This document shows, piece by piece, positions 10,541-48,820 of a stretch of DNA of 64,000 nucleotides (the stretch's first letter is position 1; the number at the start of each line of letters is the position of its first letter). The position numbers and the translations under genes were made by a program. The notes under the pieces are model-generated. The model did not search any database and was not told where the DNA came from. It was given only the letters and a program-made list of their open reading frames with translations. Source of the stretch: Celeribacter indicus (lineage in GTDB: Bacteria > Pseudomonadota > Alphaproteobacteria > Rhodobacterales > Rhodobacteraceae); contig NZ_CP004393.1 in the NCBI RefSeq assembly GCF_000819565.1, positions 3,782,001-3,846,000 of the forward strand. The letters are read 5' to 3'.

Positions 10541-11821
10541 ATGTATCGAGTCTGGAATTTCATCTCCAACTATTCGCTTCTCCTCATTTTCGGCGCGATC
10601 AGCGCGCTGATCTGGGCGAATGTTGACGCACAGTCCTATCATGCCTTCGTCGAGTTTCCGCTCGCCGAAAACTTCTTCATCGGCCATCCCCATGCCGACG
10701 AGGCCGGCCATGTCCACCGCACTCTGACCATGCACTACCTGTTCAACGACGTGCTCATGGCCTTCTTCTTCGCCATCGCCGCGAAGGAGGTCTGGGAGGC
10801 AGTGATCCTCAGGAACGGCAGCCTGCGCGGCAAGAAGGCGGCGACGCCGCTCATCGCCACCGCGGGCGGCATGATCGGCCCGATCGCCGTCTACCTCGGC
10901 CTCGCGCTGGTCCTGGGCTCGGACACGTTCGACGCCGTGAAACACGGCTGGGCCGTGCCCACCGCGACCGACATCGCGTTCTCCTATCTCGTCGGCCGCG
11001 TGGTCTTCGGCGCGGGTCATCCGGCGGTGCGCTTCCTGCTGCTCCTCGCGATCGCGGACGATGCGGCGGGGCTCGTGATCCTCGCGATCTTCTATCCCAC
11101 CGGCGAGCTGGCGCCGGAATGGCTGCTCCTGTCGCTCGGCGTGGCGGCGCTCGTCTTCGTTCTGGTCAACTGGCTGCCGCGCAAGCTCGATGCCGGCAAC
11201 CAGTTGCGCCCGAATTCCACCTGGGTGCGCAAGAACCTCTCCTTCTGGCCCTATCTGATCGCCGGCTGCATTTCCTGGTACGGGTTCATGCGGGCGGGCA
11301 TCCACCCGGCGCTCGGGCTTCTGCCGATCGTGCCGACGATCCCCCATGCCGACCGCGCCTTCGGGATCTTCGCGGAGGCCGAAGAACATCTGTCGGACCT
11401 TCTCAACGACATCGAGCACAAGCTGAAAATGCCGGTGGAGGTCATCCTCTTCTTCTTCGGGCTGCTGAATGCGGGCGTCGAGTTCAACGCGATCGGCGAG
11501 CCGACCTGGCTCGTGCTGGCGGGCCTGCTGATCGGCAAGCCGGTCGGGATCCTGCTCATGGGCATGCTCGCGGCGCATGTGCTGCGGCTCGGGCTGCCCA
11601 AGGGGATGCGCACGATCGACCTGCTGGTGATCGGCTGCGTCGCCGCCATCGGCTTCACCGTCTCGCTCTTCATCGCCTCCGTCGCCTTCGACGCGGGCAC
11701 CATGCTCGGCGAGACCCCGGTGCAGGCCGCGGCGAAGATGGGCGCGCTCTTCTCCTTCGCGGCGGCGATCGTCTCCATCGTGGCGGGGAAACTGTGTCGC
11801 GTCCAGAAACGGCACCACTAG
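10541..11821 (+). CDS. nhaA: Na+/H+ antiporter NhaA
   Basis: NhaA expels Na+ in exchange for H+ at the inner membrane, controlling cytoplasmic pH and sodium. The 426-residue polytopic protein carries the paired ion-binding aspartates D173-D174 in IADDAAGLVILAIFY, matching D163-D164 of the E. coli enzyme. The ATG at 10541 has GGAGGG seven bases upstream. It is a single-gene unit. About 40 residues after the first helix (histidine-rich GHPHADEAGHVHR) form a longer loop than in E. coli NhaA. Confidence 0.93.
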   Translation: MYRVWNFISNYSLLLIFGAISALIWANVDAQSYHAFVEFPLAENFFIGHPHADEAGHVHRTLTMHYLFNDVLMAFFFAIAAKEVWEAVILRNGSLRGKKAATPLIATAGGMIGPIAVYLGLALVLGSDTFDAVKHGWAVPTATDIAFSYLVGRVVFGAGHPAVRFLLLLAIADDAAGLVILAIFYPTGELAPEWLLLSLGVAALVFVLVNWLPRKLDAGNQLRPNSTWVRKNLSFWPYLIAGCISWYGFMRAGIHPALGLLPIVPTIPHADRAFGIFAEAEEHLSDLLNDIEHKLKMPVEVILFFFGLLNAGVEFNAIGEPTWLVLAGLLIGKPVGILLMGMLAAHVLRLGLPKGMRTIDLLVIGCVAAIGFTVSLFIASVAFDAGTMLGETPVQAAAKMGALFSFAAAIVSIVAGKLCRVQKRHH

Positions 11822-11849
11822 ATCCCCTCCGGGGTGCACTGTATGCGCG

Positions 11850-11880
11850 ATGAGGCCAAATCCACGCGATCGGGCCTCAT
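11850..11880. repeat. Perfect 8-bp inverted repeat after nhaA
   Basis: ATGAGGCC (11850-11857) pairs with GGCCTCAT (11873-11880) across 15 bases. There is no T-run. It may help end nhaA transcription or be part of the control region of the next gene. Confidence 0.4.
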
Positions 11881-11892
11881 TGTGGCCACAAT
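11879..11892. promoter_or_regulatory. 14-bp perfect palindrome (operator candidate)
   Basis: ATTGTGGCCACAAT is a perfect palindrome about 120 bases upstream of the kpsT-like gene. Its two-fold symmetry suits a dimeric DNA-binding protein, but I do not recognise the regulator. Confidence 0.45.
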
Positions 11893-12014
11893 TGCACGTT
11901 CTGAGATGGATTTAGGGGGGAAGCGACGACATAATGCCGTCTGAAAGGCAGACTATGTAAAGACCCTTCGGCAGACCCGCGCGCGGGGATCAGGCAGTTT
12001 CAGGGCAGAGACCG

Positions 12015-33754: not shown

Positions 33755-34492
33755 ATGCATTTCCATAAGAAGCAGATTGAAGCAGACGGATTCGAGGTCA
33801 GCCCGGCCCTTGATGTCAAATTGAAAAGGCGCGGCTCCGGTCCGCAGGTCCGAACCGCCGAAAAACGCAGTTTCATAAGCCACGAAGGCGATGTCGCCAC
33901 CTTTCTCCTGCTCTTGCTGGACGGCTGGGTCGCCCTCACCAAGGCGCTTCCGGACGGGGAGACGCAGATCATCGACCTGCTTCTTCCCGGCGATTCCGCG
34001 CTGATCGCCGCGCAGCGCGCTCCGATCTCCGCCTGCTCGGTCGAAGCCCTGACCCATGCGAAATTCGTAACCCTCGGCGAGGAGATTCTCGGCGGAACCG
34101 ATGCGGAGGATGCGGCGATCCGCCGGCGACTGGTCGCGACGCTGTCGACGGCCCAGGCGCGCGTCGCGGAGCATCTTCTCAGGTCGGGACGGGGCAGCGC
34201 CGCCAGCCGCATCGCCTATGCCCTCCTGGAACTCTACGTCAGGCTTCAGGCCGTGGGGATGACGTGGGAGACCTCCTTCGCCCTGCCGATGACCCAGCAG
34301 GACATCGGCCAGTTCACGGGGCTGTCGAACGTTCACGTCTGCCGGACGCTGCGGCGTTTCGAGCAGGACGGGATCGTCGCGCATCGCCACGGGACGGATA
34401 TCGCGCTCCACGACATCCATGCGCTTTGCACGCTGGCCGGCGTCAACCTGGACCAGTTGCGGAGCAAGATCCTGATAAGGGGCGCGTTCTGA
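33755..34492 (+). CDS. Crp/Fnr-family transcriptional regulator
   Basis: The 245-residue protein has an N-terminal cyclic-nucleotide-binding-type beta roll (FISHEGDVATFLLLLLDGWVA, then G-E-T-Q-I-I-D-L-L-L-P-G-D) and a C-terminal winged helix (MTQQDIGQFTGLSNVHVCRTLRRF). It has no N-terminal Cys cluster, so it is not an oxygen-sensing FNR of the [4Fe-4S] kind. It is convergent with the arc-atp operon, 81 bases from the end of atpG, and a role in controlling that operon is possible but unproven. Confidence 0.88.
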   Translation: MHFHKKQIEADGFEVSPALDVKLKRRGSGPQVRTAEKRSFISHEGDVATFLLLLLDGWVALTKALPDGETQIIDLLLPGDSALIAAQRAPISACSVEALTHAKFVTLGEEILGGTDAEDAAIRRRLVATLSTAQARVAEHLLRSGRGSAASRIAYALLELYVRLQAVGMTWETSFALPMTQQDIGQFTGLSNVHVCRTLRRFEQDGIVAHRHGTDIALHDIHALCTLAGVNLDQLRSKILIRGAF

Positions 34493-34573: not shown

Positions 34574-35500
34574 TCACCCGGTCCCGTCCTCCCCGGCCGA
34601 CGGGTCCGCGGGCGGCTCCCCCTGCCGGCGCTTGTCACGGTCCTTCAGCGCCTCGAACCCGATCACCACGTCGAGAAGTTCCGTCGTGATCTCGCTTTGC
34701 CGCACCGACCGTGTCTCCGCCGTCAGCTCTTCCAGCCGTTCGTCGACCGATTGTTCGGCCTGTTGCATGCGCGCGAGCCGGGAGGCATTCTCGGTCACGA
34801 GCGCCTCGGCGGCGGCGCGGAAGATCTCGGCGAACAGGTAGCTGCGGATCAGCGCGGCCAGCAGGGCGTCGGGCGTCAGGGTCAAATGCGGCAGGCTCCG
34901 CGATGTCCAGGGCCGCACGGCGAGCTCGGCCATCAGTTCGGGATCGAGCGGCAACAGGCGGCGGGAGACCGGCGCCTGCTGGCCATGCGCCGCGCGCTGC
35001 ATGAACACCAGAGACACCGCGATGTCACCGGGCGCGGCCTCATGGCGCATCGCGTCGAGCCGGGTGATGAGACGGCCGGCAAGCCGCCCCAAACCGTCGG
35101 CCGTCGCCGGCGGAAACAGCGTCGCCGCAACACCGAGCCCCTGCCCCGCCAGCGCATCCTCCAACTGTGCCCCGACGCAGATCAGGCGGGAGGCCTCGAC
35201 AGTCCGGTCGACCTCTGCGGCGATCAGCTCGTTGTAATTGCCGCAGAGCCCGTGATCCGAGCCGAAGGCGATGACGACGGGCGCGCCGGCGGGCGCCCGG
35301 TCCCGCGGCAGCGGACCGTTGCGGTGCAGGAAGGCATGGAACCCGTCCAGCACGGTGTTCCGATAGGCTTCGATGGCGGTGGCGGCCTGTTCGTAGGGAA
35401 GCGCATTGATGGCCGACATGGTCTTCATCGTCCGCACGATGCCCCGGATGGAGTGCAGGGTTTCGGTGTGGTGGGCGAGAACCTCAAGTGACTGCGCCAC
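34574..35500 (-). CDS. atpG: N-ATPase gamma subunit
   Basis: The gamma subunit is the central rotor stalk. I chose GTG at 35500 because GAGGGGG lies about seven bases upstream and the protein then begins at the usual place (coiled coil with [17 protein letters not shown]); an ATG at 35524 is the alternative. The 308-residue product has the N- and C-terminal long helices ([29 protein letters not shown]) but diverges from ordinary F-type gamma in the middle, as N-ATPase gamma does. It overlaps atpA by 17 bases and is the last gene of the operon. Confidence 0.9.
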
Positions 35501-37010
35501 GGTCCGCCCCCTCGACCGCCGCACGCGCCCGCGCCAGGACTCGCGCCCGGTCCTCCTCCGTCAGTTTTTCGTTCTCCGCGATCCGGACGCCGAGGCCCGC
35601 GTCGTCCTCCTCCATCGCCGCGCGGATCGCCGCCATCGCCCCTGTCATGGTCGCCTCGTCCATCCCGTCGAACAGGCCGTCCATCGCCACCACGAGCACC
35701 GCAAGCTGGACCGGCGCCGCCACCGGATCGCGTTCGGGCTGCCGCAGGGCCGCGCGCACCGCCGCGCCGCGTTTGAGGCGGGCCCTGGTCTGGTCGTCCA
35801 GCCGCGTGCCGAAGCGGGCGAAATCCTCGAGCTCCTCGAATTGCGACAGGGTGACCCGCAGGTTGCCCGCCACCTCGCGGAAGGCACGCGACTGCGCCTT
35901 GCCGCCGACGCGCGACACGGAGACGCCGAGATCGACCGCAGGGAACTGGTTCTTGCGCACGAGCCGCGGCGACAGGTAGATCTGCCCGTCGGTGATGGAG
36001 ATGAGATTGGTCGGAATATAGGCCGAGAGGTTTTCCGCCTGCGTCTGGACGATCGGCAGGGCCGTGATGGAGCCGCCGCCCACGCGTTCGGCAAACTGGC
36101 CCGCCCGCTCGAGAAGCCGCGCATGGACATAGAAGATGTCGCCGGGAAAGGCCTCACGACCGGGCGGACGGCGCAGCAGGAGCGACAGCTCGCGATACGC
36201 ATGGGCATGATGCGTCAGGTCGTCCATCACCACGAGCACGTCGCGGCCCTGTGCGGCAAAGGCTTCGGCGACCGACATCGCCCCGTAGGGCGCGATATAG
36301 GCGAGGCCCGGCGCATCCTCGTCTCCGGCGGCGATCACGACGGTGCTGTCCATCACCTGCCCGGCACGCAGGGCCGCGATCACCTTCGCCACCGCATCGC
36401 CGCGCTGGCCGATGGCGCAATAGATGCAGATCACGCCGGTGTCGCGCTGGTTCAGGATCGTGTCGACCGCGACAGAGGTCTTGCCGGTCTGGCGGTCACC
36501 GATGATGAGCTGGCGCTGGCCGAGCCCCACCGGCACAGCCGCATCCACCGCCTTCACCCCCGTGGCAAGCGGGCGCGAGACCGCGGATCTGTCCAGGATC
36601 AGGGGCGCCTCCGCCTCGATCGGCTGCCGGACGGCGGCCTCCACCGGCCCCCTGTCGTCGCGCGGCCGGCCGAGCGGATCGACCACGCGGCCAAGAAGCG
36701 CCGGGCCGACCGGGACGCTCACCACCTCGCCGGTGCGGTGCACGGTCTCGCCGAGCGCGACCTCCTCGGACGGGCCGAGCAACACCACCCCCAGCCGCTC
36801 CGGCTCGAGATCGAACACGATCCCGCGGACGCCGGAGGCGAATTCGAGCAATTCGTCCGACAGCGCCCGCGCGAGCCCGGTCACGATGGCAATGCCGTCG
36901 CCCACCTCCGCCACGCGACCGATCTCGCTGAGCTTCGGCGGCGGCGCCGGGCTGTCGAGCAGCGCCTTCAGGAGCGCCTCGGTGTCGGCCATGGGCGTTT
37001 CAGGCGACAT
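35484..37010 (-). CDS. atpA: N-ATPase alpha subunit
   Basis: The alpha subunit holds the non-catalytic nucleotide sites of the F1-like head. The 508-residue product has a complete Walker A (G171-D-R-Q-T-G-K177-T), the IYCAIGQR segment and the alpha-specific [14 protein letters not shown] motif. The N-terminus is close to ordinary AtpA ([18 protein letters not shown]). It overlaps atpF by 11 bases and atpG by 17, consistent with coupled translation. Confidence 0.96.
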
Positions 37011-37767
37011 CGGCCCGTCCCTTCCTTGCGGCCGGACCGGAGCCCTGATCGAGAAGATCCTCCAGCCCGTCGAGATAGCTGTCCACCGTCCAGGCGACCT
37101 GCGCCCCGCCGAGACGGAGCGTCAGGCCGGGCGCCGTCGCGGGATCGGTGCGAAATTCGACGGCGACGCCGGGCAGCCGGGCGCTCAGGTCGCTGTCGAG
37201 GGTCTGGCGCACGTCCGGCGGCAGCGGATCGCGGGTCGTCACCACGGCGGTGCGGCTGCTGCCCGCCGCCTTGCGCAGGTGCTCGGCCATGTCGTCGAAC
37301 CGGTCGGCGGCATGGGCCACGATCCGCTGCTCCAGCGTCTCGCCCGCCAGATCGGCCAGCGCCTTGCGGGTCAGGGCGAGGAGGGCGGAGGCACCGCGCC
37401 GGTGCAGATCCGCGGTGTAGCGCCGCGCCTCCTCGGCGCGCTGGCTCTCGCGCTCGGCCTGTTCCCTTGCCACGCGCTTGCGGGCCTCGGCCAGTATCGC
37501 GTCGCGTTCCGCCTCGGCACGGCCGCGCGCCTCCTCGATCGTCTGCGCCTCGCTTGCGCCCAGGGCCGCGACCTTGGCTTCGTATTCGGCGCGGACGGCC
37601 TCGGCCGCCTCGCGGATCTTCGCGGCCTCGCCCATGCGGGCGGCGATCCCGTTCTCGCGCGCGTCGATGCCGTCGAGGATCGGACGGTAGAGAAAGCGTT
37701 TCAGCAACCAGACCAGAACCAGAAAGTTGACAATCTGTGCCGCGACCGTGATCCAGTCGATCGACAT
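37000..37767 (-). CDS. atpF: N-ATPase b subunit with delta-like C-terminal part
   Basis: The b subunit is the stator. At 255 residues it is about 90 longer than ordinary b. One N-terminal membrane helix (about 5-22) is followed by a long charged coiled coil (about 25-140) and a C-terminal domain with delta-like features (LAARLPGV..., [26 protein letters not shown]). The operon has no separate delta (atpH) gene, which is normal for N-ATPases; the extra domain probably does that job. Confidence 0.9.
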
Positions 37768-37771
37768 GATC

Positions 37772-38056
37772 CTAGCTGCCCACGCCGCTCGCCGCGGCGA
37801 TCGCGTTCCAGAAGGGGTTCGCGAAGACCAGGATCATGGCCACGACGAAACAGTAGATCGCGGTGGATTCGATCATCGCCAGGCTGACGAAGAGCGTCCG
37901 GGAGATGGTCGAGGCCGCGTCGGGCTGCTGTGCGATGGCGTTGAGCGCGGTGGAGGCGGCGCGTCCTTCGCCCAGCGCCGGCCCGAGCGCGCCGAAGGAA
38001 ACGGTCATCCCGGCGGTAAAGATGGAAATGGCGGCGACGAGGGAAAGATCTGTCAT
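37772..38056 (-). CDS. atpE: N-ATPase c subunit (rotor ring)
   Basis: The 94-residue two-helix hairpin forms the membrane rotor. Helix 2 has the ion-binding E63-S-T-x-x-Y68, the ligand set of sodium-type c subunits. In helix 1, the position equal to the Gln of the Ilyobacter sodium site (GPGVGQG) is E30 (GPALGEG), so each site has two carboxylates. The loop AQQPDAA is in place of the usual R-Q-P. Ion specificity is therefore ambiguous. The ATG at 38056 overlaps the atpB stop (ATGA). Confidence 0.95.
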   Translation of the reverse strand: MTDLSLVAAISIFTAGMTVSFGALGPALGEGRAASTALNAIAQQPDAASTISRTLFVSLAMIESTAIYCFVVAMILVFANPFWNAIAAASGVGS

Positions 38057-38757
38057 GTCTGGTCCTTTGCAGGTTCCGGGGTGTCTCGGTCCGGCGGGGC
38101 GGCCGTGGCCGACGAGATGTAGACGGTGGCGAGGATGGCGAAGATATAGGCCTGGATGATGCCGGTCAGCAGGCCCAGCATGTCCATCACCACCGGGAAG
38201 AAGAACGGGGCGACGCCGAGGAGGATCGCTGCGATCACCGCCCCGCTCATGATATTGCCGTAGAGCCGGATGGCCAGGGAAATCCCCCGAGAGAATTCGC
38301 TGATGACGTTGAACGGCAGCATGACGACCGAGGGCTCGACATAGGTCGCGAGATATCCGCCGAGCCCGCGGCTGGAGATGCCGAAGATCGGCACCGCCAC
38401 CAGCACCGACAGCGCCAGCGCCGCGGTGGTGGACAGCGAGGCGGTGGGTGGATCGAAGCCCGGCACCACCATCAGCAGGTTCGAGGTGACGATGAACAGG
38501 AACAGCGTGCCGCTGAAATACAGCAGCCGCCGGTCGGGCGCCTGCGAGATCTCGGCGATCTGGCCCTCGATCCCGCGCACGATCACCTCGAGCGCGGTAC
38601 GCCACCGGCTCGGCGGCACCTCGGGGCGCAGGTTGCGCGTGACTAGCCAGGAGACGGCGGTCAGCAGCGCCATGATGAGCCAGGTGTTGAAGATGGTCTT
38701 GTTGATGGCAAGGGCGCCGATCGCGAAGACGATGGTGTCGTCCGGGGTCAGTTCCAT
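38053..38757 (-). CDS. atpB: N-ATPase a subunit
   Basis: The a subunit provides the ion half-channels. The 234-residue product begins at the ATG at 38757, overlapping atpR by 10 bases, and has about five or six helices. The essential Arg is R164 in SLAIRLYGNIMSG. The proline-rich C-terminal tail after residue 220 is variable. Its length is typical for the N-type. Confidence 0.94.
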   Translation of the reverse strand: MELTPDDTIVFAIGALAINKTIFNTWLIMALLTAVSWLVTRNLRPEVPPSRWRTALEVIVRGIEGQIAEISQAPDRRLLYFSGTLFLFIVTSNLLMVVPGFDPPTASLSTTAALALSVLVAVPIFGISSRGLGGYLATYVEPSVVMLPFNVISEFSRGISLAIRLYGNIMSGAVIAAILLGVAPFFFPVVMDMLGLLTGIIQAYIFAILATVYISSATAAPPDRDTPEPAKDQT

Positions 38758-39053
38758 CCGGGCGCGTCCTTCTCTGCACGCGGCGGGCGGGCGAGCGCGA
38801 CGGCGAGGAAACGCACCGCGACAAAGGCCAGCGCGAAGGCGGCGAGCACCGCCGCGCCGGCCTGCGCCACCAGCCAGCCTGCCGCCAGAAGCGCTGCGAT
38901 CCTGAGGCCCGCGCTCGTCACAAGCACCGGCACCGGACGGCGCGCCCGGAGCGCGAGCCGCATGCCGAGGGCGAGACCGGCGAAGAACAGCACGCCTGCC
39001 ACCGCGCCGCCGAGGGCGCCGAGCCCGACGAGCGTCCAGTCGAGGTCGATCAT
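38748..39053 (-). CDS. atpR: N-ATPase AtpR subunit
   Basis: AtpR is a small membrane protein found only in N-ATPase operons. This 101-residue version has three predicted helices with conserved Arg residues between them (MRLALRARRPVPVLV, LRIAALLAAGWLV). It was proposed to interact with the c subunit's extra carboxylate; that is from the literature as I recall it, not visible here. It overlaps atpQ (ATGA) and atpB. Confidence 0.88.
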   Translation of the reverse strand: MIDLDWTLVGLGALGGAVAGVLFFAGLALGMRLALRARRPVPVLVTSAGLRIAALLAAGWLVAQAGAAVLAAFALAFVAVRFLAVALARPPRAEKDAPGWN

Positions 39054-39333
39054 TTGCCGTCTCCTTCCTTGCCGATCCACCCCCAGGCGATGACTGCGCC
39101 GAGCACCACCCCGCCGACAATCAGCGCAAGCGTCCAGGAAAACCCCTGCGGCGCCACCCGGTCGAGCCACAGCCCGAGGAAGGCGCCGCCGACCGCGGGC
39201 ACCGCGATCGACCAGCCGATCATGCCGAACGTGCCGATCCCCCGCAGCGGACTGGGACCCGGATTGTCGCGGGCGGCCTTCATGCGGCGGGCGCGATTGC
39301 CGATGTCCTCCGGAGACCTGTCGCGTTCTTCGG

Positions 39334-39337
<4 letters not shown>
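39050..39337 (-). CDS. atpQ: N-ATPase AtpQ subunit (AtpI/MgtC-like small membrane protein)
   Basis: AtpQ replaces AtpI in N-ATPase operons. The 95-residue product has a charged N-terminus (to about 38) and two helices (WSIAVPAVGGAFLGLWL; WTLALIVGGVVLGAVIAWGW), like AtpI, which helps c-ring assembly. Starts and stops overlap by four bases on both sides. Confidence 0.9.
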
Positions 39338-42051
<2,714 letters not shown>

Positions 42052-42052
42052 C

Positions 42053-43054
42053 TCAGCCTCCCAGCGTGGCGACGAGCACCGCCTTGATCGTGTGCATCCG
42101 GTTCTCTGCCTGATCGAAGACGATCGAGGCGGGGCTCTCGAAGACCTCGTCGGTCACTTCCATCGCCTCGAGCCCGTAGTCGTCGCGGATCTGCGCGCCG
42201 ATCTCGGTCTCGGCATTGTGAAAGGCCGGAAGGCAATGCATGAACCGGGTGCGCGGGTTGCCGGTCTTCGCCATCAGCTCCGCATTGACCTGATAGGGCG
42301 TCAGGAGCTCGATCCGCTCGGCCCATTTCTCCTTCGCCTCCCCCATCGAGAGCCAGACATCGGTATAGATGAAGTCGACGCCCTGAACCGCGGCCTCCAC
42401 GTCCGCGGTGATCGTGATCCGCGCGCCGGTCTCCCCGGCGATGGCGGCAGCCTCCTCCCGGATGGCCTCCTCCGGCCAGAGGCTCCGGGGCGCGCAGAGC
42501 CGCACCTCCATGCCCATCTTGGCCCCGCCGATCAGAAGGCTGTCGCCCATGTTGTTGCCCGCGTCACCGATGAAGCAAAAGGAGACTTCGCGCAGCGGCT
42601 TGTCGGAATGTTCCTGCATGGTCAGGAAATCCGCGAGGATCTGGGTCGGATGGAATTCGTCCGTGAGCCCGTTGTAGACCGGCACGCCCGCGTGATCGGC
42701 CAGCTCCTGCACGATCTTCTGGCCGAAACCGCGATACTCGATGGCATCATAGATCCGCCCGAGCACGCGGGCCGTGTCCCTGACCGTTTCCTTCCTGCCG
42801 ATATGGCTGCCGGACGGGCCGAGATAGGTCACGGTGGCACCCTGGTCATGGGCGGCCACCTCGAAGCCGACGCGGGTGCGCGTACTGTCCTTCTCGAAGA
42901 TCAGCGCGATCTCCTTGCCCTTCAGGCCGGGCTGTTCGGTGCCGGCGTATTTCGCCGCCTTGAGATCGGAGGCGAGCTTCAGCAGGAAGGCGATCTCGGC
43001 GGGGGTGAAATCGCGCAGGCTCAGGAAGTGGCGGTTCTTCAGGTTGAAGGACAT
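42053..43054 (-). CDS. arcB: Ornithine carbamoyltransferase, catabolic
   Basis: ArcB splits citrulline with phosphate into ornithine and carbamoyl phosphate. The 333-residue product has the carbamoyl-phosphate site S57-T-R-T-R61, [10 protein letters not shown] near 135 and FMHCLPAFH near 270. Being between arcA and arcC argues for the catabolic enzyme and not the biosynthetic ArgF; the length is also that of catabolic forms. Confidence 0.95.
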
Positions 43055-43066
43055 GTCATGCTCCTG

Positions 43067-44296
43067 TCACACGGGGCCGCGCATCGTCGGGCAGCTCATG
43101 CAATGGCCGCCGCCCCGGCCCCGGCCAAGCTCGGCGCCGGGGATTGCCAGCACCTCGATCCCCTCGGCCCGGAGCGCGGCATTGGTGTCGTCGTTGCGGT
43201 CGTATCCAATCACCACGCCGGGGCGCAGGGCAAGGACATTGTTCCCGTCGTTCCATTGCTCGCGCGCCCGCTCCTCCTCGGTCTCGCCGCCCGTCGGCAC
43301 GATCCGGAGCCGCTTGTAGCCGAGAATTTCCGCGACGATCTCGAAGATCGGCCGCGGGTCCTCCCGGAACGACAGCGGCGCATCGCCCTCGCCGGGGCGG
43401 ATGTCGTAACAGACCAGTTCATCCGCGACCTCCTTGAAGGTCGTCACCACATCGTCGCCGCAGAGGGTGAAGACCGTGTCGAGGTGCATCGCCGCGCGGG
43501 ACTTCGGGATCCGGAAGGCGACCACACGGTCCACCACCTCCCCGGCGAACAGGGCCTCGGACAGTTGCCCGACGCCCTGCGGCGAGGACCGCTCTCCCAT
43601 CCCGACCAGCACCGTGCGGCGTCCCACCGGCATGATGTCGCCGCCCTCGAGCGTCGCGAGACCGTGGTCCTTCGTCGGGTCGCCCCAGTGGATCCTCACC
43701 CGTCCCGCGAATTTCGGGTGGAACCTGTAGATCGCGGTGTTGAGCAGGGTCTCCGGGCGCCGCGCGCTCCAGTGCATCGGATTGACGACGACTCCATCAT
43801 GGATCCATGCGGAATTGTCGCGGGTGAACAGCGCGTTGGGCAGGGGCGGCAGAATGAACCCGTGATAGCCCAGGTAGCTGCCGAAGAGGCCCGCCGGACG
43901 GAACGGAAGATCCTCCACCGTCAGCCCGCCCAGAAGGTATTCCGCCAATGTCGCCCCCGGCAACTCGTCCATCCAGGCGCGGAGGTCTTTGCGCATGCCG
44001 ACGCCGATCTGGTCCGGCGTGATCCGGTGATCGAGGATCCAGGCCCGGCCTTCGGGCCGCTCCAGCGTCTCCGCCAGAAGCGTGTTCACGTCCAGCACCT
44101 CGACGCCTTCCTCCCGCATCAGGCCGGCGAAGACATCGTGATCCTTCTGCGCCTGCTTGACCCAGAAGACATCGTCGAACAGCAGGTCCTGACAGTTCGC
44201 GGGCGTCAGCCGGCGGTGGGCGAGACCGGGCCGGCACACGATCACCTGCCGCAGCGTTCCGGTCTCCGAATGGACTCCGAGAATGTGCTCGGTCAT
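43067..44296 (-). CDS. arcA: Arginine deiminase
   Basis: ArcA hydrolyses arginine to citrulline and NH3. The 409-residue product has [10 protein letters not shown] and the catalytic GGGHC399MSCP motif with the nucleophilic Cys, plus the [12 protein letters not shown] segment. The ATG at 44296 follows the transporter gene by 15 bases. Ammonia release protects against acid, as known for the pathway. Confidence 0.97.
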
Positions 44297-44311
44297 GGTC
44301 TTTTCCTTCGG

Positions 44312-45757
44312 TCAGAGGAGAGCCGCCACGCTCAGCGCCGCGCTGACGAAGACGACCAGAAGCAGCAGGAGCGGCCAGATGAAGACGAGCCAGCGTTCGT
44401 AGGGCACCCGGCCGATCGCCAGCCCCCCGACCACGACCGCATAGGTCGGGGCGATGAGGTTGGTGATGCCGATGGCCGTCTGGAAGGCCGTCACGGCAAG
44501 CTCGCGCCCGACCCCCGCGAAATCCGAGAGCGGCGCGAAGATCGGCATCGACAGGACCGCGAGGCCGGAGGTCGAGGGCACGACGAAGCTCAGCAGCCCC
44601 TCGATCCAGAACAGCGCGTTCACATAGGCGATGTCGGACATGCCGCTGATCCTGTCCTCGAAATAGTGGAGGATCGTGGCGGAGATCATGCCCTTGTCCA
44701 TGATCACGACGATCCCGCGGGCAAGGCCGATGACCAGCGCCACCCCCAGCAGGTCGCGCGCGCCGTCGACGAAGGCGGAGGTCATCTTCTTTTCCCCCAT
44801 CCAGCCGAGGATACCGACGACGATGGCGGAGCCGAGGAACAGCGCCGACATCTCGGCCATCCACCAGCCCTGCGAGGACACGCCCCAGATCATCACCACG
44901 AAGGTGAGCGCGAAGACGATGAGGACGATCTTCTGCCTGCCGCTCAGGACCGCCTCGCGCGCCGCCTCGTGGCCCTTGAGGAAATGCGCCTCGTTCTCCG
45001 CCTTGCGCTCCGCCACGACCGATCTGTCGGGCGCCTCGCGCACGCGTTCGGCATAGCGCATCACGAACACCACCGCGATCAGCCAGCTCACGGCAAGGAT
45101 GACGAGGCGCAGGCCCATGCCGCGGGTGAACGGGATCCCGGCCGCGTCCGAGGCGATGGCCGTCGAGAAGGGGTTGATGGTCGAGCCGAGCACGCCCACG
45201 CCCGCGCCCAGCATGATGATCGCCACGCCGGTGACCGCATCATAGCCCGCCGCGATCGCCACCGGGATCAGCAGCGGATAGAAGGCGAGCGTCTCCTCGG
45301 CCATGCCATAGGTCGTGCCGCCGAGGGCAAACAGCGCCATCAGCGCGGGGATCATCCATTTTTCCCGCCCCTTCAGCCCGCCGATCGCGCGTTCGATGCC
45401 GGCGCTCACGGCGCCCGTGGCATTCACCACGCCAAGGAAGCCCCCGATCACCAGCACGAAGAGCGACACGTCGATCGCATTCGCCACATATTCGGCGGGA
45501 TCGTAGAAGCCCGCGATCGGTGCCATCAGCACATCGAGCAGCCCCTGCGGATCCGGCTCCACCGTGTGATAGGTGCCGGGCACCGGCGCCTCCTGGCCCA
45601 GCGCCTCGTCCATCACCTGATCGTATTGCCCTGCGGGCATGATCCAGGTCAGCACCGCCATGAGGACGATCAGGAGGAACAGGATCGTATAGGCCGTGGG
45701 AAAGCGCGAGGCCCTCACGCGTTCGGGATCGGGCGCGGTATCGTGTTCGGACGGCAT
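44312..45757 (-). CDS. YfcC-family membrane transporter, probable arginine/ornithine exchanger of the ADI operon (arcD role)
   Basis: I chose the ATG at 45757, with GGGAG about eight bases upstream; a longer frame to 45889 would run through the promoter. The 481-residue protein has about 12 helices, starts FPTAYTILFLLIVLMAVLTWIMPAGQYDQ-like (split here for length), and has the YfcC/DcuC-type GVLGSTINPFSTAIASDAAG motif. The family includes basic amino-acid exchangers. Its position as first gene before arcA, where arcD lies in Pseudomonas, supports arginine/ornithine exchange; this is inference. Confidence 0.85.
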   Translation of the reverse strand: MPSEHDTAPDPERVRASRFPTAYTILFLLIVLMAVLTWIMPAGQYDQVMDEALGQEAPVPGTYHTVEPDPQGLLDVLMAPIAGFYDPAEYVANAIDVSLFVLVIGGFLGVVNATGAVSAGIERAIGGLKGREKWMIPALMALFALGGTTYGMAEETLAFYPLLIPVAIAAGYDAVTGVAIIMLGAGVGVLGSTINPFSTAIASDAAGIPFTRGMGLRLVILAVSWLIAVVFVMRYAERVREAPDRSVVAERKAENEAHFLKGHEAAREAVLSGRQKIVLIVFALTFVVMIWGVSSQGWWMAEMSALFLGSAIVVGILGWMGEKKMTSAFVDGARDLLGVALVIGLARGIVVIMDKGMISATILHYFEDRISGMSDIAYVNALFWIEGLLSFVVPSTSGLAVLSMPIFAPLSDFAGVGRELAVTAFQTAIGITNLIAPTYAVVVGGLAIGRVPYERWLVFIWPLLLLLVVFVSAALSVAALL

Positions 45758-45875: not shown

Positions 45876-45889
45876 TTAACCTGCATCAA
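45876..45889 (-). promoter_or_regulatory. Fnr/Anr-like box upstream of the arc-atp operon
   Basis: TTGATGCAGGTTAA on the minus strand matches 8 of 10 defined bases of TTGATNNNNATCAA: one half perfect, the other with two changes. Its centre would lie near -41.5 from the predicted start. Arc operons are Anr/Fnr-activated in Pseudomonas. Confidence 0.55.
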
Positions 45890-45985: not shown

Positions 45986-47287
45986 TCAGAACCTGAGACC
46001 GGGCAGCCAGAGGGCGATCTGGGGGAACAGCAGCAGAAGGACGATCCCCACCAGCATCGGAATGACGAAGGCGACGGCACCCCTCGCCGTATCCGAGATG
46101 GACAGGTCGGGCACCACCGTGCGCAGCACGAACAGGTTCAGCCCGACCGGCGGCGTGATCGCGGCGATCTCGATCTGGATGGTGACGATCACGCCGAACC
46201 AGATCGGGTCGTAGCCGAGGCCCACGATCGTATCGAGGAAGATCGGAACGACGATCACCAGGATGCTCAGCGGATCGAGGAACATGCCCATGATCAGCAG
46301 GAGGATGTTGATCATCACGATGATCATCCAGGGCGCCACGTCGAGGCCGGTCAGGTAGGTGGAGATGTCCTGCGGCACGCCGAGCCGGGTCAGAACGAAG
46401 GAACTGAACAGCCCGCCGATCAGCAGCAGCATGAACATGCCGGTGGTGCGGACGGTCTTTTGCAGCGCCTGGCTGAGCACGCCGCCCCTGAGCCGTCCCA
46501 TCGCCAGCGCCACGAGGACCGCGGCGGCGGCGCCGAAGGCCCCGGTTTCGGACGGCGAGGCGATGCCGGCATAGAGCGCGCCGATGACCATCAGCGCGAT
46601 CAGCACGGTGGGCAGGGCCTCGGCGCTGGTACGCATCCGTTCGGAGAAGCTGACCCGGCGGACGATGGGCGGGGCCATCGACCTGTTCATCACCACCTGG
46701 AGGATGACGGTGGCCGAGAGCAGCGTCGCCATCATCAGCCCCGGCAGGATGCCGGCGAGGAACAGCCCGCCGATCGAGGTTTCGGTGATCACCCCGAACA
46801 GGATCATCGGCACCGACGGCGGGATCAGGATCCCCAGCGTGCCGCCCGCCGCCGTGGCGCCGGCGGCAAGGCTGCGCGCGTATCCGTGCTTGATCATCTC
46901 GGGCACGGCCATCGAGCCGATCGTCGCCGCGGTGATCGGGCTCGAACCGCAGACCGACGCGAAGCCGGCGCTGGCGGCGATGGTGCCGATGGCCAGCCCG
47001 CCGGGCAATCGCCGGAGCCAGATCGCCGCGGCCCGGAAAAGCGCCGCGCCCAGGCCCGAGATGGCGATCACCTCGCCCATCAGCACGAAGAGCGGGACGA
47101 TGACCAGAACGAAGCTCCAGGTCTGGGAATAGGCGATGTTGGCGATCTGCACGACCGCGCGCGGCGAGACGAAGACCGCCGTGCCCAGAATGCCGATGAG
47201 CCCCATGCTGACCGCCACGGGGATGCGCAGCGACAGCAGGAAGACGAGTGCGCCGATGAAGGCGCCGAACCATAGCAAGGCTTCCAT
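45986..47287 (-). CDS. TRAP transporter large permease (DctM), operon 1
   Basis: The 433-residue protein has the DctM fold of about 12 helices with GFASVCGSSPITAATIGSMAVPEM near 112-135 and GTLGILIPPSVPMILFGV near 153 (shown here as landmarks in pieces: SSPITAATIG, ILIPPSVPMILFG). It forms the channel of a sodium-coupled carboxylate importer with the two genes upstream. It starts nine bases after the dctQ stop. Confidence 0.94.
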   Translation of the reverse strand: MEALLWFGAFIGALVFLLSLRIPVAVSMGLIGILGTAVFVSPRAVVQIANIAYSQTWSFVLVIVPLFVLMGEVIAISGLGAALFRAAAIWLRRLPGGLAIGTIAASAGFASVCGSSPITAATIGSMAVPEMIKHGYARSLAAGATAAGGTLGILIPPSVPMILFGVITETSIGGLFLAGILPGLMMATLLSATVILQVVMNRSMAPPIVRRVSFSERMRTSAEALPTVLIALMVIGALYAGIASPSETGAFGAAAAVLVALAMGRLRGGVLSQALQKTVRTTGMFMLLLIGGLFSSFVLTRLGVPQDISTYLTGLDVAPWMIIVMINILLLIMGMFLDPLSILVIVVPIFLDTIVGLGYDPIWFGVIVTIQIEIAAITPPVGLNLFVLRTVVPDLSISDTARGAVAFVIPMLVGIVLLLLFPQIALWLPGLRF

Positions 47288-47296
47288 CTTGATCCT

Positions 47297-47824
47297 TTAA
47301 TCTTGCTGGGGGTGCCCGCGGAACTGCCGCTGCGCCTCGAAAAGTTGCAGGAGCGCGGTCAGCAGGAACTGGATCAGTCCGATCGGACCGATGATCTGGA
47401 TCCACTTGAGCTGAACCGGAACCACGGCATTGGCCAGCCGGCCGTCGGCGAAGGAGCGCGCCGTGAGCTGCCAGAGATACCAGCAGAAGATGGCCCCGAA
47501 GACGATGCAGGCGAGCGCCGCCACATGGTCCAGGTATCGCCTTGCGGATTGTGGAACGAGTTCCTCGAACAATTCCACCGTGACATGCTGGCCGGATTGC
47601 AGCGCCGGGGCGAAGGACAGGAAGACGACGTAGACAAAGGCGATCTGGGCATAGTCATGCGCCCACATCTGCGGCGTGCCGAAGGTCCGCGCGAGCGTCG
47701 CCGCCACGACGATGATGCCGATTGCGGCGACGAGGATGCAGGCAAGGGCGGTAAAGAGGGCGTTCACCCCCTCCACCACGCTCTTGAAGAGCCGAAAGGC
47801 CCCGGAAGGTTGCGTCTCGACCAT
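47297..47824 (-). CDS. TRAP transporter small permease (DctQ), operon 1
   Basis: The 175-residue protein has four predicted helices, starting near residue 20, and the WAHDYAQIAFVYVVFLSFAPALQ-type region (helix 2, around residue 52) of DctQ proteins. It lies between dctP (12-base gap) and dctM. Confidence 0.9.
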   Translation of the reverse strand: MVETQPSGAFRLFKSVVEGVNALFTALACILVAAIGIIVVAATLARTFGTPQMWAHDYAQIAFVYVVFLSFAPALQSGQHVTVELFEELVPQSARRYLDHVAALACIVFGAIFCWYLWQLTARSFADGRLANAVVPVQLKWIQIIGPIGLIQFLLTALLQLFEAQRQFRGHPQQD

Positions 47825-47836
47825 CTCGCGTCCCGC

Positions 47837-48820
47837 CTATCGACCGAGGGAATAGAGGGTTTCGACCAGTTCGGTCCCGACCTCGTCCCTTTCGGGGACC
47901 TCCGCCATGGCTTCCCGGAACACCGGGTCCCAGCGGTCCAGCAGGGTGGCGAGTTCGTCATCGCCGACCTTGTGGTAGGTGGCGAGTTCCGCGATCTGGT
48001 CCGCCTCCTTCGCGCTGACTTCGCGCAGGATCGTCGTTCCCTTGACCGTCATCTCATCGGAAATCTCCTGCACGAGCTGTTTCTGCTCGTCGCTCAAGTC
48101 CTCCCAGACATCCATGCCCACGATGGTGACAAGGGAGTTTCCGGCAAAGCCGTAGTCCGAAAAATACGGCGCGACTTCGTAGAGGGAGCTCGACAGGTAG
48201 ATGGAGGAGGAGATCACGGCGCAGTCGATCGTCTTGTTCTGAAGCGCGGTGTAGATATCCGCGGCCGGCAGCGCGACCGGGCTTGCACCGGCGGCTTCGG
48301 CCTGCTTGGCCTGCCACCGGCCGGCAGTCCGGACCTTCTTGCCCTGCCATCCGTCCACGGTGTCGAGGATCTCGCTGGTGCAGGCCATGCCGCCGCCGAA
48401 GGCAGGCATGGCCCACAGGGCCTTCACATCGTACTGCGCCAGCAGCTTCTCGATCGCCGGCATGATCGTGAGCATCGCCTCCTCGGCAGGCGGATCGTTG
48501 ATCGGCACGCTCAGGTTCAGCTCGAGATAGCCGAAGGCGGGGATCGTGCCCGCCATGGACGAGGCCACCCCCATCGCCGCCGGCACCACACTGTCGGCGA
48601 CGGCATCCAGCGTTTCAGGAATGGCGACCAGCGCCCCGTTGAGAACCGGCTCGAAAGTCACCTCGCCGCCGGTCGCCTCGGCCACGGCCTCCGCCCATTC
48701 GATCCCAATGGCGGAGATTTCGCTGCCGCCATTGAACGGCAGGGAATATTTCATGTCCGCCGCCACGGCCTGCGACCCGAAAAGGCACGCGACCAGCGCG
48801 CTTGCAGTCAGTTTGTTCAT
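47837..48820 (-). CDS. TRAP transporter substrate-binding protein (DctP), operon 1
   Basis: The 327-residue precursor has a Sec signal cut after about residue 20 (GSQAVA). The mature protein has the DctP fold, with the conserved region KKVRTAGRWQAKQAEAAGASPVALPAADIYTAL in which the Arg that binds the ligand carboxylate is expected (split view: VRTAGRWQ, PVALPAADIY). The substrate is unknown. It is divergent from a LysR gene across 342 bases. Confidence 0.92.
   Translation of the reverse strand: MNKLTASALVACLFGSQAVAADMKYSLPFNGGSEISAIGIEWAEAVAEATGGEVTFEPVLNGALVAIPETLDAVADSVVPAAMGVASSMAGTIPAFGYLELNLSVPINDPPAEEAMLTIMPAIEKLLAQYDVKALWAMPAFGGGMACTSEILDTVDGWQGKKVRTAGRWQAKQAEAAGASPVALPAADIYTALQNKTIDCAVISSSIYLSSSLYEVAPYFSDYGFAGNSLVTIVGMDVWEDLSDEQKQLVQEISDEMTVKGTTILREVSAKEADQIAELATYHKVGDDELATLLDRWDPVFREAMAEVPERDEVGTELVETLYSLGR

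Follow-up and report, generated by a model that had tools for sequence, protein, structure and literature searches.

Why should the genes of the arginine deiminase pathway run, in a single string, into those of a second ATPase? The question is raised by the window analysed here, a stretch of 64,000 nucleotides (nt) of Celeribacter indicus (NZ_CP004393.1), which at positions 34574-45757 contains all 13 open reading frames of an operon arcD(yfcC)-arcABC-atpDCQRBEFAG, all on the minus strand. The arc genes are separated by spacers of 15, 12 and 1 bases and the arcC stop from the atpD ATG by 7 bases (41130-41136); seven of the eight atp junctions overlap by 4 to 41 bases, and atpE and atpF are spaced by 4 bases. 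An earlier note on this DNA had reported this gene string with the same gaps, and its coordinates and strand were confirmed, as were the junction bases, which were read directly. Its statement that there is no room for a promoter or terminator between arcC and atpD also held: a sequence scan found neither a promoter-like nor a minus-strand terminator-like site at this junction, and elsewhere gave one promoter-like and six terminator-like sites, which is chance level. We propose that the 13 genes are co-transcribed and form a low-oxygen energy module, in which ATP made by the carbamate kinase ArcC drives an ATP-hydrolysing, probably Na+-exporting N-type ATPase (N-ATPase), a reading to which we give a probability of about 0.57.

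The identity of the two halves was assessed from family models, gene content and gene order. ArcA, ArcB, ArcC and a YfcC-type exchanger are all together, as expected of an arginine deiminase pathway, with the substrate of the exchanger being a prediction only. The atp genes form a single cluster atpDCQRBEFAG with the beta and epsilon genes leading, and the c subunit has two glutamates. The marker subunit AtpR (38748-39053) was recognised with Pfam PF12966 (33 bits, cut-off 26), though its score with TIGR03165 (33.4 bits) is under the cut-off of 55.5; judged by sequence, the operon nonetheless belongs among the N-ATPases on account of its gene order, AtpQ, AtpR and c subunit. AtpD clusters with loci found through N-type AtpR or AtpB, in a tree that held loci found in this way and no F-type beta subunit. 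By eye, and against known motifs, the catalytic and rotor residues seem complete.

Co-location of arc and N-ATPase genes in related genomes

We searched 394 genomes from 393 genera of the family of C. indicus, in which N-type AtpB was found in 76 genomes, arginine deiminase in 49 and both in 27. If the two were independent about 9.5 genomes with both would be expected (odds ratio 7.4, Fisher p 1.4e-9, for genomes that are themselves not independent). In 15 of the 27 genomes with both systems these are linked within 20 kilobases (kb) on one contig, compared with approximately 0.26 expected for genomes of about 4 megabases (Mb) by our own arithmetic, and in a 16th case (G740) the two are spread over two contigs, one carrying atpG with arcDABC behind it and the other atpD and atpB. 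The co-location is thus recurrent, beyond chance and strongly non-random, and the adjacency, which according to the earlier note should not be confined to one genome, is not so confined. The arc genes lie upstream in the same direction in six of the 15 linked genomes, divergently in four and downstream in the same direction in four, while in the 15th the two systems are 15.5 kb apart with phaB-phaC-pta-ackA between them. All 77 other N-ATPase places in the family were retrieved, some of them cut by contig ends.

Further cases came from a genome collection, where the best 80 of 580 loci were used. Among these, arc genes were found upstream of the N-ATPase in Halomonas fontilapidosi, in Marinobacter aromaticivorans and three other Marinobacter genomes, but not in M. 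halodurans, and also in Silicibacter lacuscaerulensis and two Roseovarius genomes. The same set contains three Sulfitobacter loci with arc genes upstream (one without arcD near, one without arcB and one cut after arcC) and a gammaproteobacterial metagenome-assembled genome (MAG) in which 5.5 kb of other genes intervene. Altogether 24 of 168 loci screened had arc-like matches, with the 168 being partly redundant as some collection loci are the same places as family-genome loci; one of the 24, L226, in which a 40% ArcD-like gene lies behind the ATPase of a Lutibacter, was excluded from the links. The gap between arc and atp genes was at most 30 bases in 12 of 18 arc-upstream loci, measured between match ends and with the MAG outside the 18. 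Relatives with such a tight junction include S. lacuscaerulensis ITI-1157 (Ruegeria), M. aromaticivorans D15-8P and H. fontilapidosi CECT 7341.

A class-wide sample, taken alone, had suggested that the adjacency is nearly unique: AtpR was found in 30/385 genomes, and an arc gene (arcC alone) was near in 1 of the 28 loci examined, which left out the C. indicus locus, one weak match and a second weak match in one genome, and were in part cut by short contigs. This suggestion was overturned by the family-wide search.

The two systems were probably joined more than once

In a quick AtpD tree (153 rows) the arc-upstream, divergent and arc-downstream loci fall into three separate clades, each of them mixed with arc-free loci. 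With a more careful ArcA tree (43 rows), the hypothesis that the 24 linked copies form one clade was rejected (approximately unbiased test, p-AU 2e-56), as was the corresponding hypothesis for the 15 arc-upstream copies (p-AU 3e-49). The arc-upstream ArcA sequences form two groups, one with mostly tight junctions and one with loose junctions. The loose arc-upstream and the divergent groups are near each other in ArcA, yet belong to different N-ATPase clades. As the tree groups were named after the first trees had been inspected, these p-values, and that given below, are too favourable.

The ArcA of C. indicus falls together with the ArcA proteins of Sulfitobacter, Silicibacter, L104 and L106, whereas AtpD and AtpA place it with loci including L151, L092 and L091, and forcing AtpD/AtpA together with the linked ArcA relatives was rejected (p-AU 6e-75). 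The C. indicus operon therefore brings together two lineages, one of arc and one of atp genes, which are separate elsewhere. When arc lineage, atp lineage and geometry are considered jointly, four different combinations are seen, and these are best fitted by a further joining in the lineage of C. indicus itself, albeit that gene exchange inside an existing operon could mimic a new joining.

A candidate low-oxygen operator

At 45876-45889, 118-132 nt before the arcD start, lies a palindrome of the Fnr/Dnr type (TTGAT-N4-GTTAA in the minus-strand reading), which is the one site in the 64 kb to fit TTRAY-N4-RTYAA (0.08 expected) and is a candidate operator site. It matches the strict Fnr consensus TTGAT-N4-ATCAA at 8/10 positions. 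The looser class was chosen after the result with the strict consensus, and reports of FnrL/DnrD sites of this class in Dinoroseobacter shibae (PMC5398030) were met afterwards; the same publication describes repression of the ordinary atp operons of D. shibae in anoxia.

Such a palindrome is present within 350 nt of the first gene in 10/16 arc-upstream loci, compared with 110/4800 random stretches of the same loci, and stands before the first gene in 3/4 divergent loci and in 1/18 arc operons of genomes without N-ATPase. These counts omit the near-duplicates L167, L114 and L265, the truncated loci L162 and L169, and also L280, L284 and L285. Among arc-free loci, the palindrome precedes atpD in 13/25 members of the first (arc-upstream) clade, 5/19 of the second (including L118, which the AtpD tree places elsewhere) and 0/30 of the third. 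Among the arc-upstream loci 1/16 has it before atpD; of the 11 tightly joined loci one, L106, has a palindrome in this place as well as at the front. With the site lying before arcD when the arc genes are upstream and before atpD when they are absent, the first-clade operator tends to head the transcript of the pump. The alternative form TTGA-N6-TCAA, known from the Rhodobacter FnrL literature, was found in 5/16 arc-upstream loci, 0/4 divergent loci, 0/4 arc-downstream loci and 3/18 arc loci of N-ATPase-free genomes.

A gene for a Crp/Fnr-family regulator (33755-34492, plus strand) is convergent with atpG and has the Pfam domains HTH_Crp_2 and cNMP_binding, and genes related to it are found near other N-ATPases. 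Its product is FixK/FnrL-like but far under the cut-offs, and with so distant a likeness we do not claim it as the reader of the palindrome.

Other neighbours of N-ATPases

The arc-free N-ATPases of these clades adjoin genes for acetate kinase, bifunctional phosphotransacetylase, polyhydroxybutyrate (PHB) synthase, short-chain dehydrogenase/reductase (SDR) enzymes and Crp/Fnr regulators. At least 14 of the 76 N-ATPase genomes have an ackA gene no more than 20 kb from the N-ATPase, and at least 27/76 either arc or ackA, with acetate kinase itself being present in 262/394 family genomes. On a plasmid of Sulfitobacter sp. SK012, acsA, ackA, pta and fabI, together with a gene of the alpha/beta hydrolase type whose position suggests a PhaC-like product, are divergent from the N-ATPase, behind which are genes for a universal stress protein and a formate/nitrite transporter. 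Judged from these annotations, the common factor of the arc and ackA neighbours is the making of ATP without respiration.

This bears on the claim of the earlier note that arginine-derived ATP feeds an ion pump as one module. The single module is supported, alongside its recurrence in many genera and a candidate operator of low-oxygen type at its front; as a description of the energy source the claim was too narrow, because N-ATPases of the same clades stand beside ackA and pta in other genera, which would make arginine one ATP source among several. A broader proposition follows the same lines, namely that fermentation-powered ion pumping in Rhodobacterales and marine Gammaproteobacteria has the N-ATPase as its engine. 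Modules of substrate-level phosphorylation (arginine deiminase, or phosphotransacetylase plus acetate kinase) would have been recruited to the N-ATPase on four or more occasions, under Fnr/Dnr control in many lineages, for the reason that the ordinary ATP synthase is locked against hydrolysis; we regard this proposition as evenly poised between right and wrong.

The variety of neighbours also suggests a different explanation, in which arc, ackA/pta, PHB, Crp/Fnr and N-ATPase genes share a regulator and travel together as a low-oxygen island, with the pump not being tied to the ATP of its neighbours. The slot ahead of atpD differs between genera (arc, phaC-pta-ackA, an SDR gene or an ATP-binding cassette (ABC) transporter), N-type AtpB is found on 14 plasmid records of nine genera, two of these records having been inspected, and 6 of the 22 arc loci from N-ATPase-free genomes (L266, L268, L270, L272, L273 and L274) have behind arcC an SDR gene that shares 80% identity or more with the pre-atpD SDR gene of L098. 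Against such an island stand the repeated joining of ATP-generating kinases to the ATPase in three geometries and the rarity of either palindrome in arc operons of N-ATPase-free genomes, by which the regulation seems tied to the pump. We consider an island without direct coupling possible but distinctly less probable than the energy module.

Ion specificity

The C. indicus N-type c subunit (atpE, 37772-38056; Pfam PF00137, 59.5 bits) has Glu in both helices, and its ESTxxY motif together with the helix 1 carboxylate is the sequence signature of a Na+ rotary ATPase, while the F-type c subunit of the same genome reads AFAEALGIF and has no ESTxxY. Helix 2 reads AMIESTAIY and helix 1 has GEG in all 18 arc-upstream c subunits compared, with L169 left out. 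In the divergent loci the same helix 2 goes with AEG in helix 1 in 4/5, the fifth being cut off, and the five arc-downstream c subunits have AMIETTAIY (ETTxxY). Na+ is favoured as the predicted ion since the c subunit of the proton-coupled N-ATPase of Burkholderia pseudomallei is reported to lack ESTxxY (PMC9927469). An earlier sequence-based prediction of Na+ failed for B. pseudomallei, and ProAD splits 1807 N-type enzymes almost evenly between H+ and Na+ (PMC11738941).

The motif also bears on a role in acid or salt stress, in which the ammonia from arginine would raise the pH and the ATPase would expel H+ (or Na+) independently of oxygen. Acid survival and salt tolerance have been proposed for N-ATPases (PMC5376962, PMC9927469), and in two relatives a gene for an HdeD-like membrane protein is located between arcC and atpD (L097:11865-12425 and L092:11217-11780). 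These two loci have looser junctions, one of them also containing an SDR gene, and the HdeD match is far under its curated cut-off, although a plasmid record bears the name. With a c subunit motif for Na+ rather than H+ and an operator of the low-oxygen class, we consider a stress module improbable. Resistance to acid through proton pumping, as put forward in the earlier note, is accordingly not our first choice given ESTxxY, while some acid or stress role is kept open by the HdeD-like gene of the two relatives.

A second ATPase next to an ordinary ATP synthase

An ordinary F-type c subunit is encoded in the same genome (G000:C1:749461), and on this basis the N-ATPase is the second such enzyme of C. 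indicus. The genome also has one gene for the zeta inhibitor of the F-type enzyme. For Paracoccus, the F-type ATP synthase is described as having almost no ATP hydrolysis, and an enzyme of this kind would be a poor substitute for a pump. The N-ATPase ring of B. pseudomallei moves 17 ions per turn (PMC5376962), and a cell living on the ATP from arginine alone, which would need another enzyme to make an ion gradient, would be well served by such a pump.

Exchange of arginine for ornithine generates no ion gradient. In the proposed energy module, falling oxygen would lead a Fnr/Dnr-type regulator to turn on a single transcript, ArcD would swap arginine for ornithine, and ArcA, ArcB and ArcC would convert arginine into ornithine, ammonia, CO2 and one ATP. 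The N-ATPase made from the same message would hydrolyse the ATP of ArcC and export ions, most likely Na+, which may keep membrane potential, ion homeostasis and transport going without respiration. The opposite direction, with the N-ATPase using a Na+ gradient to synthesise ATP and the arc genes merely an extra ATP source in the same operon, is compatible with catalytic and rotor residues that look complete. With an F-type enzyme indicated by the c subunit elsewhere in the genome a second synthase gains little, and N-ATPases are treated as pumps in the parts of PMC5376962 and PMC9927469 that were available, so that synthesis appears highly improbable.

Several observations weigh against the energy module. 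No arginine deiminase match was found in 49 of the 76 N-ATPase genomes, and in 11 of the 27 genomes with both systems there is no link within 20 kb (24.6 kb in G454, different contigs in the remainder), so the coupling has to be seen as optional. The nearest ArcA relative of C. indicus, L236, is unlinked to the N-ATPase of its own genome. Regarding regulation, TTRAY-N4-RTYAA is absent from the arc-downstream loci (0/4) and from 30 other loci of that clade (0/30), TTGA-N6-TCAA is missing before C. indicus arcD, and shared regulation instead of energy transfer could account for the co-location. The "alternate F1F0" models are top-scoring for AtpA, AtpD, AtpG and AtpF, yet all four scores are under the curated cut-offs. 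The Na+ motif is a prediction only and gives no sign of a link with arc: ESTxxY is present in most arc-free N-type c subunits compared, and as arc-free relatives share it, it tells the ion and not the neighbour. Finally, deletion of zeta alone failed to restore hydrolysis in Paracoccus, and the block of the F-type enzyme therefore has other causes.

Relation to known systems

The N-ATPases described for B. pseudomallei, Aphanothece halophytica and Futiania mangrovii (PMC5376962, PMC9927469) resemble that of C. indicus in the order atpDCQRBEFAG, the presence of atpQ and atpR, the two Glu of the c subunit and in being second to an F-type enzyme. They differ in that no arginine deiminase neighbour is named in the available parts of these publications, whereas the C. 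indicus N-ATPase is the distal part of an arc operon and has a c subunit with ESTxxY.

The arcDABC loci of N-ATPase-free family genomes (L264-L285) encode the same steps, in most cases in the order arcD-A-B-C. The arginine deiminase operon of Pseudomonas is likewise arcDABC. The C. indicus operon differs by running on into nine ATPase genes, as no N-type operon lies behind the 22 N-ATPase-free loci; these contained no atpA, atpB, atpD or atpG, except for a 25% AtpD-like match in L279 which we take for a distant paralogue. A parallel with another kinase is the pta-ackA/PHB cluster on the SK012 plasmid, where a similar N-ATPase (AtpB 75% identical) also stands beside an ATP-making kinase, but with acetate kinase in place of carbamate kinase and divergent instead of in one operon.

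We searched the literature on N-ATPases with arginine deiminase or carbamate kinase, and on alternate F1F0 ATPases with arginine, and also more broadly, and among the papers listed found no joint operon in a coverage that was without the founding N-ATPase paper, Dibrova et al. 2010; in PMC3543383 the term N-ATPase is confined to the reference list. Within this literature the earlier note, which knew of no described joint operon, was borne out: the arc pathway and the N-ATPase are each known, while their union in one operon, the repeated assembly of such operons and a connection with substrate-level phosphorylation appear to be new. The cellular functions of N-ATPases have been called largely unexplored (PMC5376962), and with a link to substrate-level phosphorylation and a low-oxygen operator one specific function becomes directly testable, which also offers a reason for keeping a second ATPase beside the ordinary ATP synthase. 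If true, many marine aerobes could hold an ion gradient in anoxia on arginine, an ability that would be mobile on plasmids, and on the broader proposition above the N-ATPase would gain a general physiological role.

Gene assignments, genomic setting and variant loci

Within the arc part, the gene for the arcD-like arginine/ornithine antiporter of the YfcC type (44312-45757) matches Pfam DcuC PF03606 (404.5 bits) and the NCBIfam model "putative basic amino acid antiporter YfcC" (310 bits, cut-off 500). The arginine deiminase gene arcA (43067-44296) scores 534 bits with NF002381 (cut-off 414) and 453 with TIGR01078 (cut-off 489), and is the sole match to the arginine deiminase family in the C. 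indicus genome. It is followed by arcB for ornithine carbamoyltransferase (42053-43054; TIGR00658, 424.6 bits, cut-off 280.85) and by arcC for carbamate kinase, the ATP-making step (41137-42051; TIGR00746, 377.6 bits, cut-off 358.25).

For the ATPase genes, the best models were TIGR03305, alternate F1F0 beta, for atpD (39741-41129; 709.7 bits, cut-off 752), TIGR03321 for atpF of the fused b/delta type (37000-37767; 189.9 bits, cut-off 224.7), TIGR03324 for the alpha gene atpA (35484-37010; 665.6 bits, cut-off 750.5) and TIGR03323 for the gamma gene atpG (34574-35524; 202.5 bits, cut-off 282.35), the GTG start of which is uncertain. The epsilon gene atpC (39334-39744) scores 109 bits with TIGR03166 (cut-off 100.1) and atpQ (39050-39337) 80.3 bits with TIGR02230 (cut-off 46.7). 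The a subunit gene atpB (38053-38757) was aligned with four N-type AtpB sequences, the arginine of RLxGN being invariant in all five.

The C. indicus copy is located on a 4.5 Mb contig, and is therefore probably chromosomal. Genes for a tripartite ATP-independent periplasmic (TRAP) transporter, dctPQM (45986-48820), lie on the same strand, 228 bases ahead of arcD. A module arc-hdeD-atp (L286, NZ_CP061500.1) is found on the 132 kb plasmid pRA02 of Roseicitreum antarcticum, which is typed as conjugative, with insertion sequence (IS) elements and a Crp/Fnr gene behind it.

Some loci depart from the full arrangement. In the Sulfitobacter locus L171 (5441-7617) arcA is directly before arcC with no arcB between them, so carbamoyl transfer is either encoded elsewhere or lost, and in Roseovarius dicentrarchi arcA is split over two frames (L178:4934-5608), which may be a broken gene or an assembly fault. 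In L059, where no arcA, arcB or arcD was found within the retrieved 20 kb, a carbamate kinase gene (10915-11922) is directly before the N-type atpD and an acetate kinase gene is divergent from it, making this a minimal kinase-pump pair.

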